From: Zarea fungicola
Taxonomy: Eukaryota; Ascomycota; Sordariomycetes; Hypocreales; Cordycipitaceae
Assembly: GCA_900169235.1 (NCBI GenBank)
Contig: FWCC01000068.1
Span: forward strand, 186,001-250,000
Direction of reading: 5' to 3'
Length of the DNA stretch: 64,000 bases
Positions 48,853 through 59,459 of the stretch are shown here, piece after piece. Both the position numbers and the translations under genes were made by a program. Numbering within the stretch: position 1 is the first letter of the stretch; each line of letters opens with the position of its first letter. Under the pieces are notes generated by a model, which searched no databases, had not been told where the DNA came from, and saw only the letters and a list, made by a program, of their open reading frames with translations.

Positions 48853-50484
48853 CTAAAATGTAGAGGTAAACTGCTCGTCAAGCATATCAACTTGCAGGTG
48901 CGACTCTACAGTTCTGAACAAACTTGGAGGTAACTTTTCCCACCAGGGCCAGTACTCCTCCACCTCTTCATCTTCCAATTCCTTCTTAATCAGCTTCGCC
49001 CCCCGAGAGGCAAGCATCCCTAGCATCGCGCGTTTTTTTGTCCACAGTTCTCTAGAATCCTGCCCTTGTCTCGCAGTTTCCTGGCACGAATTCCAAAGAA
49101 CCGTGGCCGCATTTCGTCCCTCTGTATCTACACCGTGTACATCTACTCCAGACTCAAGCAACATTCTCACAACGTCGTAACGGCTCTCCAGAGCAGCCAT
49201 CATGAGAGGCGTTTGCCACTCCGCATTGGCAGCCTCCTTGTCCGCGCCGTATTCGAGCAGTACCGCCACGACGGCAATGTTGCCCCAGAAGGCCGCAATT
49301 AGTAGCGGTGTTAGGTCCGTCAACTTGGGCTCACGAAAGCGCGCATAGCGGTGTATGAACTTGCGGTGCGCCTCGACGTGCGCGCCCCGGGCGAGGAGCA
49401 GTCTCGCCAAATGGGCATGGCCCGCCTCGCAGGCGAGCAGCAGCGGTGTCGGGAGCGGCCGGTCGAGCGAGTCGGGCCAGATTTCTCTGGCATCCATCTT
49501 GGCGCCGGCCTCGATGAGCGCGAGGACAATGGCCTCGGACCCCGCCGTGGCGGCAACCCGGAGAGCCGTCAGCCCGCGCAAGTCGTGCGCGTCAACGGCC
49601 GCCCCGTTGCGCAGCAGCAGCCCCACGACGCCGAGGTGGTTCCCTTTGCACGCCTCCATGAGCGGCGTGGTTAGCATTCTATCACTCGAATCGACATGCG
49701 CGCCGGCAGTGATCAAGACCTGCACCACGTCCGCATGCCCTTTGCCGGCGGCGCGGAATATGGCAGTCTCCCCAGCCTTGCTTTCAAAGTCGACATCTGC
49801 ACCACAGTCGAGTAGGGCCTCGACTGCCGCGGCATGCCCCCGCAGGGCGGCCGCCAGCAGGGCCGTGGTATGGTCTCTGTCAAAACTGGAGGTGCAGGAC
49901 ACAAGCAATCCATCAACCTCGGCACCCTGGGAAACCAGAAGCTTGATAAGCCTGGCTTGCCCATGTGAGGCGGCAGTCTCCAGCGGTGTGCTGCCGCGCC
50001 GATGTTGGGACATGTTGTGCGTTATCGAGGCCCCGCGACGAACCAGCTCCTTCACGACACGCTTTTTCCCGGTTCGTATCGCGTAAAAGACTGGTGTCCT
50101 GCCGAGGTCATCACAGATGTTGGCTGGGTCGTCGTATTTCCCGTCTTCATCATCTAGAAACACCTTGAGAGCTTCCAAAAGCCCAAAATGTGCCGCAAAA
50201 TGAAGGGCATTTCGACCGGACGGCCCAAACTCAAATCTCTCAAAGATATCGAAACCCCAGGCCAGGGCCCTTGAGCAGCGGTCAAGGCACTGAGTAGACT
50301 GCTGCAGAAAGTCCAGCACTGTGCTGCTGCGTTGGTAGTGCGCTGGAGCAGAGGCAAGATGATGGCCCCAGTGATCGGCCGCGTAGTCGAATAGCTTGTA
50401 CGCAGGCGATGTGACTCCATCAACGCCCGGCCACTCCCTCTTGTCCCATGTATATAGAAACGAGATACATGCTTTTGCAATCCG
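48853..50484 (-). pseudogene. Ankyrin half of NACHT-ankyrin NLR, beyond the in-frame UAG
   Basis: This is the continuation of the NLR frame past the UAG at 50,487-50,485. It is open for 543 codons. The first residues (RIAKACISFLYTWDKREW) match the sequence that follows the NACHT module in fungal NLRs. About ten ankyrin repeats follow (for example TPLETAASHGQARLIKLLVSQGA, TALLAAALRGHAAAVEALLDCGADVD, TPLMEACKGNHLGVVGLLLRNGA), each shown here in part. In intact NLRs the repeats form the ligand-sensing superstructure. No frameshift or second stop exists, so the lesion is recent, polymorphic, or read through. An independent start would have to be at or after the CTG/ATG codons near 50,320, which has no obvious promoter. 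Confidence 0.75.
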
Positions 50485-52220
50485 CTATTCGGCATCGGGA
50501 AGCCAGGTATCCTGGCGCTGCTCGAAATATTCCTGCGTCGTGTAGTGGACGAGGCGAACCACATTGCTCTCTTCGTCGACTATGACTAGACCTGCGCAAG
50601 CCGATATGACGTCTTCGACCTGCGGAACGTTATCGTCATCAAATACCAATTCAGTCTCGTCAATAGCTAGAGCTTGCAGGAGCTCAACCACCTTCAAGGG
50701 TCTTCGGGCGGAGACTATCCATAGCAGCGCATTCTCTGCAAGCATCCTAAACCCTGGCTTCTGCATTTGAATCCTCTCCATAGTTTGATCGTATGCTTGT
50801 GATAGAACTTCGAGCTTTGCGCCGTCACTGGCACTGGATCTTTTGCCCTGCTCCTCAAAGTAACCCAGGGCCCGCTGGACAGCCTTAACTGTCAGCTTGT
50901 CATCTAACTGTGAGATGTAAACTCGCGCCAAGAGAAACATTCCATCTGCCGCCTTCGTAATGGTAACCTTTATTTGATCCTGCAGAGCTGCATTGACTCT
51001 TATACAGTTGGACAGTTTGTCAAGGTTACCATCCAAGTATGCTCGCACATCATGATCCGGTGCCCGGATCTCGAGTTTGATTGTAGAATCCTGCTTGAAC
51101 GCATTATGAATCTCAGGACTGGGTCGGGAGGTTGCGAAGACGCTTGCTTTTCCGGTTTGTGCCAGGTTGCAGAGCGCGGAAATGAACTTGGCCCTGCAAT
51201 TATCGGCTGTCTGGCATTCATCCAAAGCATCCACTACGATGAATATCCGTTGAAATGAAGGTACATTGACGATTGTATCGAGAAATGCATTGAGCTCGTT
51301 TGTCGATGGCCGTGTCCTGGCTGCCTTATGGGTCTTTTCTAGTGACTTGAGCGCTTCAGCCGCTGACGGATCCTGTTGTACGAGCTGCTTCACCAAGCTT
51401 GCATAGAGACACCCTAGTTTCTGGTCTTCCTGGCGACGGAAATTAAGATAGACGTAGGCGATTCCAATCCCATCATCTGTCCGTGTACTAGACAGCAAGT
51501 GGTCGATGACGGACGCGGCCAGGATAGTCTTGCCTGCTCCGGGTATTCCAGGGCAATACATGATTGCGTTCGGTGTATCCAACCATTGGTGAAACTCTAG
51601 GGAGTCCAGAAGCCATCGTCCAGTGTCGGAGTATCGCCTACTAATCAAATCGCTATGCTCAGGGCCATATTCTGTTGGGGACAGCCATGCGAGCGTATTT
51701 TGGAATTCTTGGTTCTCAACGTGCCGTAGGAGATTCGACGTGGCCGTCCGAGTGATGCGATTATGAAAGGCATTGAGTAGGGCGGCATTTGCACTGAGCC
51801 GGATCTGCAGAGAGTGAGCGATCTCAGGAGACCAGTTGAACCTCGCCAAAGCCCTCTTGACTCTGTTCCTAGCCCCTTCTGCATCTTCTTCAAGCATGTT
51901 ATTTTTCCCGAGAAGCTCTGACAGCTCGAGCAGCACACTATGACATCCACGTGCGATTTGATGCAGATCTCTCGAGTCGGCGTCGGTGAGATCACAGTTC
52001 GAAGCGGAAATCTCAACATCCTCCAGAACAATGGAGAGACTCCTCACTCTGCCGAGCCGTGATTAGGTACATGTGAGTCAGCATTTATATGATATGGTTT
52101 TAAGACGTACTGGTCGGCAATCTGTTGAAACTGGCGCGGCGAGCTCGCAAAGTCCCTTCGCAGTTTTCTGCACAGATTGATGCCTAGCAAAAGCTCGCCG
52201 ACACTGACGCTGAAATTCAT
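50485..52220 (-). CDS. NACHT NTPase half of a fungal NLR, ends at in-frame UAG
   Basis: This encodes 557 aa before the stop: exon 1 52,220-52,111 and exon 2 52,048-50,485. The 62-bp intron (GTACGT...CGGCAG, CTGAC/CTAAT branch sites) joins QQIAD|QVRSLSIVLEDVE, the N-terminus expected for this family. Walker A is GIPGAGKT (residues 204-211), and Walker B is VVDALDEC (308-315). The final HYTTQEYFEQRQDTWLPDAE is the usual end of the NACHT-associated helical module. The frame then meets TAG where homologues continue without a gap. Fungal NACHT NLRs act in heterokaryon incompatibility and antagonist recognition. A truncated NACHT-only product might still be made. The gene is divergent from the SDR at 52,949. 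Confidence 0.82.
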
Positions 52221-54050: not shown

Positions 54051-54614
54051 CATGGCTAAGGCATGAGCAAGGCAATGGGCTGCTCCCTGTGACAGCAATC
54101 GCAGTCCTATGGGAGAAGTGAACTTTTATAACAGTACAGAAGTGTACCATCTCAGATCCTCTTCTATTCTCGGGAAAACAGCTGTAACACTTGTGTTTCT
54201 CAAGATACGGTACCAAGTCGGCAAAAACCTAATCTGGGGTCAATTGACAGTTACCCCAGCTTAGAGATGACGAATAAAAAAGGATATAAAATTATAATCG
54301 GCCATGATTGTAGTATTCAGATCGAAATTAAGTACTGTCACATTTTCCATGTGGATGAGGGTTGGGACAAACAGGCTCATCAGACTGTGAGTCTCAGAGC
54401 TGGTAACCGACGCCATCGAACGATGCCTGCATTGAATTTGTTTGCTTTTTTCCTGCATAGTTGTCACATTATATATTAATGTGGCTGGCTACAAACGCCA
54501 AGTTGGCATTTAATATGGAGAATATGCAGCTTACGGTCATGTTTGTCCAAAAAGCAAACTTTCCAGAAGTTGGTGTCCTTCAAAGCCATAATATGGCCTC
54601 ATTCTTTCAACAAG
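54051..54614. other. Intergenic, 564 bp
   Basis: This is the 3' flank of the SDR gene and the upstream side of the tRNA gene. No gene is seen. Confidence 0.5.
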
Positions 54615-54686
54615 GGTCGCGTGGCCAAATGGCAAGGCGTCTGGCTACGAACCAGAAGATTGTGGGTTCGATCCCCACCGTGACCT
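54615..54686 (+). tRNA. tRNA-Arg (anticodon ACG), intronless
   Basis: The 72-nt gene folds into a full cloverleaf. The acceptor stem is GGTCGCG with CGTGACC (7 pairs, one G-U). The anticodon stem is TCTGG/CCAGA around loop CTACGAA, giving anticodon ACG (read as ICG, CGN arginine codons). The T arm is GTGGG-TTCGATC-CCCAC. The D arm is GCC...GGC. The discriminator is T. A/B-box-like internal promoter elements are present, and T runs follow within 12 nt. Confidence 0.95.
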
Positions 54687-54697
54687 GAAGATGTTTA

Positions 54698-55977: not shown

Positions 55978-58248
55978 ATGAAAATTCTCTTCTTCTGCAC
56001 CGCTTTCAATTCCTTATCGCAGCGTGTATACCTCGCACTCTGCGAACAACACTACGTTACCATAGAATATGCCCTGTCAGAAGAACTCATGATTGAGGCT
56101 GCGGAGCTCGTCCAACCAGATCTGATTATTTGCCCTTTCTTGACTACACTGGTGCCGGCTCAGGTATATAGCAAGTTCCTGACGCTGATTGTTCACCCTG
56201 GGCCACCAGGTGATGCCGGCCCAAGCGCATTGGATTGGCTCCTCATGGGAGACAACGGAACAGAGCCGGATTCCAAAAGATTGCTTCAGCGGACGTCTCT
56301 GAGTGAGAATGGGCGACCATATTGGGGTGTCACGGTGCTTCAGGCCACGGCCGACTTTGACATGGGCCCTGTTTGGGCTTTTGAACAGTTCGCCGTTGAC
56401 ATTGACCAGCCCAACATTACCAAGTCGAGTCTGTACCGCGGCCCCGTCACCCGATCTGCTGTGACGGCCGTTCTCAAGGCCGTCGATCGCATCACCATAG
56501 CGGCGGATGTCCAGAGTGCCAGCTCTCGCGGACGTTCAGCCTCCCGCCCAAGTACATCTGGAAAGGATCGCACCAGCAACGACAGCAGCAGACCCAAATG
56601 CACCATCCATCCGACTCTAGTCGCAAATCCCCTCTTTGTACAGCTCTCGGTCGCTTCCGGAGAGCATTTTCAGGGCGGTACCACGCGCCATCGACCGCTG
56701 TTGCGCGCTGCCGATCGCGACTTTGATCCTCGAATCCACAGTGCCGTCGAGATCTCGCGGCGGATACGCTGTGCCGACTCCCAGCCTGGCTGTCTCAGCA
56801 GCCTCCTGGGACCCAAGCTGTACCTCTACGGTGGTATAGTGGACAGTGGAAAGCAGTCTGCCGGCGCTGTACCTGGCTCCATTATTGCCAGTCGTGACGA
56901 CGCCGTTTGCATTGCCACGTGCGATGGAAAAGGTATCTGGATCACGCACGTACGCCGCATCAAGGGTAAGACGGATGCTTCGCTGTGGCCCAAGGTACCT
57001 GCCGTGCAGGGCCTCATGGAGCTTTCGGAGCACAGGATGGGATACCAGAGCTTGCAACGGGCTGTATCGGTGCGTACACCCCAGCATTCTGGGCACGAAG
57101 AATGGTCCAGGGCAGCAAACAGTACGCTACAGGACATTTGGGTTGATTTTGAACCAATGAATGATGGTGGCCTGGCTGCGTATCTCTTCTTCGACTTCTA
57201 CAATGGCGCCATGAGCACCAAGCAATGTAGACGGCTGCTCAAGGCCATGAGATACATTCTCTCCGTCGCTGAGGTAAAGCCAGTCCGTGCTGTGGTGCTC
57301 ATGGGCGGATCGTACTTTAGCAATGGTATCCATCTCAATGTTATTGAATCAGCAGCAGATCCGGCCCTTGAGTCCTGGTTCAACATCAACGCCATTGACG
57401 ACCTTGTTTACGCCATCCTGTACGATTTCCCAACCCGGGGCCTCAAGACCATTGCGGCAGTCAGAGGCAATGCCGCTGCTGGCGGTGTGGCTTTGGCTAC
57501 TGCTTGCGATTATGTTCTCGCTGGCGAGGACGTTGTATTCAACCCCGCCTATCGTACCATGGGCCTCTATGGTTCCGAGTTCCACAGTCTCACATATCAT
57601 GCCCGATGTCGTGGTAGCGACGGAAAGAGAATACTCCGTGATATGATGCCTCTCAGCGCCAGTGCAGCAGGCCATCTGGGACTTGTCGACCACGTCCTGC
57701 CTGGCTGGGGTGCTACACTAGAGTCTGCGATCAAGGCTCAGGTCGCCGTCCTCATTTCGGTACTCGACGCCACTGGTGCTCCTTCGTTTGTGGCGGAATG
57801 GAAGCGCGGCTTAGATCTCTCGAGCGAACGTCTCGCCCGCGTTCGTGCCGAAGAGCTTGCCGAAATGGCGAAGGACTTTTGGAGTCCGCGTTCGCAGCGT
57901 TATCACCCGCGCCGACATGACTTTGTCCGCAAGGCCAAGGCAGCTGCCACGCCGAGACGATTTGCTATTCATCGCAAATGCGATGGGTTGGTCGACGAAG
58001 AGGATGACGACCGCTTCGACTCTGTCGAGTGGTTCATCATGAAAAACAGCATCGCTCAGTGCGAGAGCAGTCTGAATGGGGCAGCAGTGGAGATGCCATC
58101 GCGACCGAGGAAGTCATATGCGCGAAGCAAGGATGCGCAGTCCTCCAGTTGCGACACCATAGATGAGAAACCTTGGTCAGGGCAACCAGGTATCCCCAAG
58201 GCAAAGACTCGCGGGACAATCTTTTGCTGTTACTATGATGCCGACTAA
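55978..58248 (+). CDS. hypX: HypX-like formyltransferase/enoyl-CoA-hydratase fusion
   Basis: This encodes 756 aa without introns. Residues 1-170 are a formyltransferase fold starting MKILFFCTAFNSLSQRVYLAL, with LVQPDLIICPFL, the HypX-type active-site segment IVHPGPPGDAGPSALDW (His73, Asp86) and VTVLQATADFDMGPVWA (Asp128). Residues about 235-330 match the HypX middle domain (RHRPLLRAADRDFD, WITHVRRIKG). Residues about 395-620 are a crotonase/enoyl-CoA-hydratase domain with FFDFYNGAMSTKQCRRL, VLMGGSYFSNGIHLNVIE, NINAIDDLV, RGNAAAGGVALATACDYVLA and MGLYGSEF. Bacterial HypX makes CO from N10-formyl-tetrahydrofolate via formyl-CoA for [NiFe]-hydrogenase. This copy is longer because of a Ser-rich insert (175-205) and a C-terminal tail (690-756). 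No signal peptide is seen. Its role in a fungus is unknown. Confidence 0.9.
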   Translation: MKILFFCTAFNSLSQRVYLALCEQHYVTIEYALSEELMIEAAELVQPDLIICPFLTTLVPAQVYSKFLTLIVHPGPPGDAGPSALDWLLMGDNGTEPDSKRLLQRTSLSENGRPYWGVTVLQATADFDMGPVWAFEQFAVDIDQPNITKSSLYRGPVTRSAVTAVLKAVDRITIAADVQSASSRGRSASRPSTSGKDRTSNDSSRPKCTIHPTLVANPLFVQLSVASGEHFQGGTTRHRPLLRAADRDFDPRIHSAVEISRRIRCADSQPGCLSSLLGPKLYLYGGIVDSGKQSAGAVPGSIIASRDDAVCIATCDGKGIWITHVRRIKGKTDASLWPKVPAVQGLMELSEHRMGYQSLQRAVSVRTPQHSGHEEWSRAANSTLQDIWVDFEPMNDGGLAAYLFFDFYNGAMSTKQCRRLLKAMRYILSVAEVKPVRAVVLMGGSYFSNGIHLNVIESAADPALESWFNINAIDDLVYAILYDFPTRGLKTIAAVRGNAAAGGVALATACDYVLAGEDVVFNPAYRTMGLYGSEFHSLTYHARCRGSDGKRILRDMMPLSASAAGHLGLVDHVLPGWGATLESAIKAQVAVLISVLDATGAPSFVAEWKRGLDLSSERLARVRAEELAEMAKDFWSPRSQRYHPRRHDFVRKAKAAATPRRFAIHRKCDGLVDEEDDDRFDSVEWFIMKNSIAQCESSLNGAAVEMPSRPRKSYARSKDAQSSSCDTIDEKPWSGQPGIPKAKTRGTIFCCYYDAD

Positions 58249-58414: not shown

Positions 58415-59459
58415 TTATATGTTTGACTTTGCCGCAGCATCTAGCCAACTGCCATCTTGGAGTGTCTTGGCCACTACATCTGCAGCATCCTTAATCTTGG
58501 AGACCATCACGCCCGAGCCAGGAGTTCCGAAGGCCGGGCCAGGGTCATTGAACGTGGACACCTCCCTCGTCGTATCCTTACCCACCTCCAAAATGGTACC
58601 GCCCACTTTATCCTCGGCCTCGATGCACAGAAGCATGGCCTCTGCGACCTCGTCCGCAGTGATCCAGCTATCCTTTTCCTCATCGACAAGGGCCATATTG
58701 GTCACCGAGTCGGTCCACAGCGGTGTCTGAACCAAGCCTGGCGCCACTGCATTGACGCGGATGCCCACCGTGGGCTCCAGTTTCTCGAGGGAGCGCGTGA
58801 ACCCCGTTATTGCATACTTTGACGCGGCATAGAGTGGCCGGAGGAAGCTTGGGGTGTACCCCGCGATGGAGGCAATGTGGATGATGCGCTTCGGGTTCTC
58901 TGGCGTCTGCTGGGTTGCCCTTTCTGGCGCCAGCCAGTGCTGGAGCGCGAGTTGCGTGGTGCGGATCGGGTGGGTGATGTTAATGTCTAGCGTTGTGTAA
59001 TGGTTGGCGTCGAGAAAGTCTCGGCTCGCGTCTGTGCCGGGCGGGTGCCAGAAGTTGGACCAGCCCGGCTCGTAGATTCCAGCGCCGGGACAGACGATTT
59101 CAAAGCTGCCGAATTCAGAGATGGCCTTGGCGAGCATAGCCCGGAGATCATCCCAGGCTGTGACGTCGGTCTTGAGGAAGACGGCGCGGCCGGACCCCTC
59201 CCCGGCAGGTTTGCTATATTGGTCCAGCAAGGCTTGTGATTCGGATCGCAGAGCCAAATCGGCAATCAGCACATTGCATCCTTTCTTAAGGAGAAGTTTG
59301 GCAAAGACCAAGTTGATACCTGTCGCGCAGTTGTGTTAGAGAGGGGTATGAGAGGGGCTTAAGAGGGACAGCAATGACGTGAGACAAGGAGGATGGTAAT
59401 TTACCTGATCCAGCGCCTGTAACGACAGCAGTTTTGCCCTGGACTGAAAATACGGCCAT
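58415..59459 (-). CDS. Short-chain dehydrogenase (15-PGDH-like)
   Basis: This encodes 319 aa in two exons: 59,459-59,405 and 59,319-58,415. The 85-bp intron (GTAAAT...CTAAC...GACAG) joins MAVFSVQGKTAVVTGAGS to GINLVFAKLLL, rebuilding the dinucleotide motif TGAGSGI. Asp in VLIADLAL suggests NAD. VCPGAGIYEPGW replaces the NNAG segment, as in fungal 15-hydroxyprostaglandin-dehydrogenase-like SDRs. The catalytic set is IASIAGY and YAASKYAITGF, then NAVAPGLVQTPLW. Length and domain are complete. It converges on the HypX-like gene with only 166 bp between stop codons. The substrate is unknown. Confidence 0.9.

Follow-up and report, generated by a model that had tools for sequence, protein, structure and literature searches.

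What does a protein of the HypX/HoxX family, otherwise known from bacteria, do in a filamentous ascomycete? The question is raised by a gene in a window of 64,000 nucleotides from Zarea fungicola (contig FWCC01000068.1, positions 186,001 to 250,000, forward strand), which is the whole stretch of DNA analysed and to which all coordinates refer. In bacteria, the HypCD scaffold is the presumed destination of the CO made by HypX. An earlier note, made from the letters of the window only, had read the gene as a HypX transferred horizontally from bacteria and reused in a fungus without [NiFe]-hydrogenase; of this interpretation, the HypX identity and, for four searched families, the absence of hydrogenase partners stood, and the transfer from bacteria is only plausible.

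Gene structure and domain organization

The gene is an uninterrupted open reading frame of 756 codons from ATG to stop (55978-58248, plus strand), as had been described, and the sequence motifs quoted for it before are present in the translation. Its parts are as follows:

55978..58248, plus strand, HypX/HoxX-family gene, 756 aa (open reading frame, Pfam, solved-structure match, protein relatives)
55978..56490, plus strand, N-terminal formyltransferase domain, residues 1-171 (Aquifex HypX alignment, 115.6 bits; Pfam Formyl_trans_N below cut-off)
56491..56682, plus strand, fungal linker, a Ser-rich, poorly conserved stretch, residues 172-235 (alignment)
56737..56970, plus strand, Formyl_trans_C domain, residues 254-331 (Pfam PF02911, E 1.7e-8)
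57259..57714, plus strand, crotonase domain, residues 428-579 (Pfam PF00378 (ECH_1), E 9.4e-13)
57979..58245, plus strand, fungal C-terminal tail, residues 668-756 (past the end of Aquifex HypX)

The top match among solved structures was Aquifex HypX (6J0P, E 1.9e-98), to which residues 1-171 and 257-668 were aligned. ECH_1 and Formyl_trans_C passed the Pfam cut-offs, and Formyl_trans_N scored 15 bits against a cut-off of 26.1 bits. A formyl-THF transferase domain was found at the N-terminus, joined to a crotonase domain, and these alignments support the arrangement formyltransferase, middle domain, crotonase far beyond chance. The Pfam domains, the Aquifex HypX alignment, and the catalytic residues (see below) all agree with the HypX architecture proposed before, and based on sequence, domain order, and catalytic residues, membership in the HypX family appears close to certain. 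The enzyme is most likely cytosolic, because its frame, like that of Aquifex HypX, opens directly with the first strand of the N-terminal domain.

The previously reported Ser-rich insert (approximately residues 178-206) and C-terminal tail (668-756) were both recovered, and neither has a counterpart in the aligned stretches of Aquifex HypX (Aquifex residues 149-182 lie outside the alignment used for this comparison). Relative to bacterial HypX/HoxX (Cupriavidus necator, Rhizobium leguminosarum, and Aquifex aeolicus 6J0P), with which it shares the domain order and the five catalytic residues proposed for Aquifex HypX, the window protein differs by an insert of about 20 aa (approximately residues 91-112), the Ser-rich linker, and an 89-residue tail with an F-x-C-Y-Y motif, and its assembly differs by yielding no match to HypC, HypD, HypF, or [NiFe]-hydrogenase.

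Two other folate-dependent families were considered and rejected. 10-formyl-THF dehydrogenase and methionyl-tRNA formyltransferase have their own C-terminal domain (ALDH) or stand-alone length. The window protein carries a crotonase domain instead of their C-terminal layout, and does not contain the His-Ser-Asp triad, as D79 aligns with the Asp that replaces Ser in HypX.

Catalytic and CoA-binding residues

PMC6802093 proposes His74, Asp80, and Asp109 of Aquifex HypX for formyl transfer, and Tyr416 and Glu426 for decarbonylation, and states that direct experimental results on the HypX reaction were not yet available in 2019. Later in vitro work, as summarised in a 2025 review (PMC12134894), has HypX yield CO through formyl-CoA. 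All five residues proposed in PMC6802093 are kept in the window protein (positions by alignment):

56194..56196, plus strand, codon of H73 (Aquifex His74)
56212..56214, plus strand, codon of D79 (Aquifex Asp80)
56359..56361, plus strand, codon of D128 (Aquifex Asp109)
57550..57552, plus strand, codon of Y525 (Aquifex Tyr416)
57577..57579, plus strand, codon of E534 (Aquifex Glu426)

Conservation was assessed in an alignment of a fungal set of 192 rows (191 proteins plus the window protein, rows without an organism name being assumed fungal) and 88 bacterial rows cut at 720 residues. H73, D79, and D128 were kept in 191/191 fungal-set rows covering them (P0012 is a C-terminal fragment), and Y525 and E534 in 192/192, an invariance that spans rows from at least three classes. 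Among the bacterial rows, four of these five residues were kept in 88/88 and the Tyr in 87/88; because L076 has Thr at this position, the Tyr is not strictly invariant in the HypX family.

Out of seven CoA contacts named in PMC6802093, five are kept in the window protein (Q15, R154, S268, Q269, N409), including all three contacts to the 3'-phosphate (S268, Q269, N409), and two are changed (Aquifex Arg9 to Ala, Arg542 to Lys). Near the THF, Aquifex Lys59 corresponds to Leu and Tyr108 to Phe; at these four changed positions, most of the 88 bacterial rows also differ from Aquifex. Relative to Aquifex HypX, the loop joining Y525 to E534 lacks one residue, a feature shared by 30 of the 88 bacterial HypX. 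Nothing in the alignment suggests a loss of either catalytic site.

Genomic setting

The contig is fungal DNA, given a spliced neighbour and ordinary eukaryotic genes (SIP1, PRP38, ATG22, catalase, FHA) among the other frames of the window, of which 20 of the 67 frames of at least 120 aa were scanned against Pfam. The neighbour adjoins the HypX gene, 166 bases past its stop:

58415..59459, minus strand, spliced short-chain dehydrogenase gene, start at 59459 and far end at 58415 (frames, Pfam, intron read by eye)

Removing a GT...AG stretch, identified by eye, restores its Rossmann motif. The contrast drawn in the earlier note between an intronless HypX frame and spliced neighbours was thus confirmed for this gene, and the contamination that it had named as a possible refutation can be set aside. 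The contig is at least 250 kb long in an assembly of 43.1 Mb and 456 contigs, in which one HypX copy was found.

Two further features of the window were recorded: a tRNA-Arg gene (anticodon acg; 54614-54687) upstream of the HypX gene, and, at 48853-52047, minus-strand frames for an NACHT/NPHP3-type ATPase with ankyrin repeats, an NLR-like fungal gene.

Hydrogenase partners and substrate supply

The assembly was searched with four families, and no match was obtained for HypD (PF01924), the [NiFe] large subunit (PF00374), the HypF zinc finger (PF07503), or HypC (PF01455). The search thus covers these four of the relevant families; it proceeded exon by exon, so that a strongly split gene could escape, and its models matched in 4 or 5 of 14 control genomes, the named ones being prokaryotes, a set without a spliced control. 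Co-occurrence with HypCD and a [NiFe]-hydrogenase was accordingly not seen in the assembly for these families, and no hyp or hydrogenase cluster surrounds the HypX gene among the 20 of 67 window frames scanned (at least 120 aa; two without a family). The lack of hydrogenase partners is supported for these four families in the one assembly searched. The formyl-THF synthetase (FTHFS) family is present in the assembly.

Distribution across fungi

Protein searches, evaluated for the best 120 of 7277 matches to the window protein and the best 120 of 4111 matches to a Venturia member, yielded at least 191 relatives, and those with an organism name are ascomycetes. Classes were looked up for Zarea (Sordariomycetes), Venturia (Dothideomycetes), and Dactylellina (Orbiliomycetes), placing the gene in at least three classes of Pezizomycotina among the matches listed. 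The highest-identity relative among the matches listed is a partial protein of Zarea fungicola (Cordycipitaceae; 92% over 63%), and at least one species, Mariannaea sp. PMI_226, has three or more copies (P0058, P0097, P0104).

The homologues, which include Pezizomycotina proteins named HoxX or "formyl transferase domain-containing" (Colletotrichum, Verticillium, Fulvia, Zymoseptoria, Venturia), are 49-92% identical to the window protein in the list of the first search (identities of those found only by the Venturia query were scored against the Venturia protein), and nearly all have the tail motif. The window gene does not differ from them in kind and is one more member. Many of the fungal rows are already labelled "hydrogenase maturation factor HoxX"; the gene carries its name in databases and finding it is not new, although a function would be. 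What is new is the setting, with no match to hydrogenase partners and a wide occurrence in Pezizomycotina, together with the tail; fold and name are not.

A literature search (mostly open-access, without bioRxiv) found no paper or assay on a fungal HypX protein. Three candidate reports were discarded: the name hypX of Penicillium marneffei occurs in a passage on a tyrosine gene cluster, the mention of HoxX in a Magnaporthe paper is a reference-list entry, and a urease paper concerns HypA and HypB. Protein P0246, filed under Apophysomyces (Mucoromycota), was not counted as fungal, having 77% identity to a Mycetohabitans protein and 34% to the window protein; it probably stems from an endosymbiont. 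Several HypX proteins (P0016, P0018, P0027, P0031, P0072, P0107) are labelled "C-type cyclin" or "RNA polymerase II CTD kinase beta subunit", apparently by inheritance from a gene model that was fused to theirs or lay next to it.

Phylogeny and origin

Two trees were calculated with bacterial rows cut at 700 residues (the frames used for L035, L039, and L041 stop early): a quick tree of 69 of the 88 bacterial loci (19 near-copies or early-ending rows removed), 14 of 120 proteins, and the window protein, and a careful tree of 31 of the 88 loci, 15 of 191 proteins, and the window protein. Warnings of uneven letter make-up concerned 16 and 13 rows, respectively. In both, the fungal rows form one side of a long, fully supported branch, whose length is 1.56 (fungal side) plus 0.04 around an arbitrary midpoint root in the quick tree and 1.26 plus 0.61 in the careful tree. 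Neither tree contains a supported bacterial sister of fungal HypX. In the quick tree, Nonomuraea rows group with the fungi under a long-branch warning, and without them, in the careful tree, there was still no supported bacterial sister. A genome scan for a close bacterial donor returned none among the best 80 of 592 relatives, the best-ranked plasmid match among these having 36.6% identity over 88% of the query.

Outside the fungi, the HypX family is known from bacteria, which makes a bacterial origin of the fungal members likely. A transfer, if there was one, was probably old and not specific to Zarea fungicola, since the gene occurs in at least three classes of Pezizomycotina, and intronlessness alone says little on transfer after a long time. 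The horizontal transfer suggested previously is hence plausible, but it lacks a supported bacterial sister, and the broad spread does not fit a fresh transfer into a single species.

Bacterial HypX with and without hydrogenase genes

The DNA flanking 88 bacterial HypX loci was searched by tblastn (E up to 1e-8), the queries being proteins from three hyp clusters. By this search, 63 loci are flanked by two or more kinds of hyp or hydrogenase gene and 25 by none, within 4 to 22 kb of flanking DNA at the latter. For 42 of 84 loci, the genome or record was searched for HypD (39 genomes and three plasmid records), with a match in 35; it had no match in two of the three plasmid records and in five of the 39 genomes, namely those of Acaryochloris, Methyloglobulus, Aliikangiella, Nonomuraea thailandensis, and a Cellvibrionaceae MAG (L004, L022, L030, L037, L077; MAGs may be incomplete). 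In the Shewanella genomes and the other Nonomuraea searched, HypX is unlinked and HypD lies elsewhere in the genome. The unlinked bacterial loci and the genomes in which HypD had no match make it probable that bacteria, too, have HypX separate from hydrogenase.

Bacterial HypX without a hyp or hydrogenase match in the flanking DNA include L082, L083, L084, L030, L077, L024, and L037. Unlinked HypX was also found on plasmids, in Mycetohabitans (hosts listed as Rhizopus microsporus) and in Acaryochloris. The neighbours of unlinked copies showed no shared theme (ten neighbours at six loci, nine with families), the sole recurring family being DUF1249 in the close relatives L059 and L077.

Unlinked bacterial HypX (Mycetohabitans, Aliikangiella, Cellvibrionaceae, Shewanella, Nonomuraea, Acaryochloris) resemble the window gene in having no hyp or hydrogenase match in the flanking DNA searched and in the short loop between Tyr and Glu; they differ in having no fungal tail motif and are not a supported sister. 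The short loop, present in 21 of the 25 loci without a hyp match versus 9 of the 63 with one, was rejected as a mark of unlinked HypX, as the association is not independent on the tree (four pairs on supported branches; sign test with a median p of 1 and a range of 0.5-1, a number of pairs too small for p to reach 0.05).

C-terminal tail

The tail of the window protein comprises 89 residues, and those of the fungal set have a median of about 90 (shortest 53). Two parts of it are conserved:

57994..58020, plus strand, acidic patch of the tail, residues 673-681 (D673, E675 99%, D681 97% of 192 rows)
58222..58236, plus strand, F-x-C-Y-Y motif, residues 749-753 (tail pattern search)

Columns kept in at least 70% of the 192 rows are D673, E674, E675, D/E676, D678, F680, D681, and V683 in the acidic part, and F749, C751, Y752, and Y753 at the end. 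In 190 tails (P0151 and P0168 gave no tail anchor), the acidic pattern occurs in 176, [FVL]-x-C-[YH]-Y in 181, and F-x-C-[YH]-Y in 180; the 181 consist of 168 strict F-x-C-Y-Y, 12 with His, and one with Leu first, and these counts are not independent events, since tail-bearing rows share kinship. At least four of the nine tails without the pattern carry Tyr for Phe, and P0013 and P0167 have nothing alike. Of the 181 patterns, 61 start 7 residues from the end, and the others start at other distances (up to 70; 8 in the window protein). None of the 88 bacterial proteins, which were searched uncut, has the pattern.

Docking or regulatory elements typically combine a fixed motif with a variable linker in front of it. 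The tail with its acidic patch and F-x-C-Y-Y is thus probably such an element, acting on a fungal partner or on the enzyme itself.

Proposed function

With moderate confidence, we propose that the gene encodes an active HypX-family enzyme which makes CO via formyl-CoA from N10-formyl-THF and serves a purpose other than hydrogenase maturation. In this scheme, the N-terminal domain would transfer the formyl group of N10-formyl-THF onto an enzyme-bound CoA, after which formyl-CoA would be decarbonylated to CO and CoA by the crotonase domain; given the conserved residues, CO production in the fungus is probable. With neither HypC nor HypD matched in the assembly, another use would be expected for the CO or, with lower probability, for formyl-CoA, and the acidic patch and F-x-C-Y-Y of the tail may dock a fungal partner or regulate the enzyme.

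The enzyme might instead relieve one-carbon metabolism by draining N10-formyl-THF to THF and CO, with CO only as waste. The substrate route is present (FTHFS), no partner is obvious among the 20 of 67 window frames scanned (at least 120 aa), and the unlinked bacterial copies share no neighbourhood theme, all of which would fit; the conserved tail motif across a variable linker suggests a specific partner or control, and CO is toxic to respiration, which together make such a drain unlikely. Formyl-CoA itself could be the useful product, the enzyme being a folate-dependent formyl donor for another acceptor with weak or suppressed decarbonylation. Formyl transfer to another acceptor is possible, and a product other than CO retains some probability, as no known CO receiver was found among the four families searched in the assembly and Y525 and E534 are separated by fewer residues than their Aquifex counterparts; yet both residues are kept in every fungal-set row and the short loop also occurs at 9 of the 63 bacterial loci with hyp or hydrogenase genes, so that we regard this alternative as rather improbable. 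Bacterial contamination or a recent transfer decayed without function, for which the single intronless frame could speak, is refuted by the spliced gene just past the stop on a contig of this length, and by relatives in many named ascomycetes with conserved catalytic residues.

If the favoured CO-forming enzyme is active, a large fungal group makes CO from one-carbon units without haem and, as far as the one assembly searched can tell, without the hydrogenase for which HypX is known. Fungal CO would then be open to genetic study, and the chemistry of HypX could be taken apart from the maturation of hydrogenase. More tentatively, Pezizomycotina may possess a haem-independent, folate-fed CO synthase that hands CO or formyl-CoA to a receiver recruited by the F-x-C-Y-Y tail. 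Such a receiver would imply a metal-carbonyl maturation or CO-signalling step of a kind which, to our knowledge and according to our searches, is not yet described in eukaryotes, and the conserved tail would offer a direct way to fish for it.
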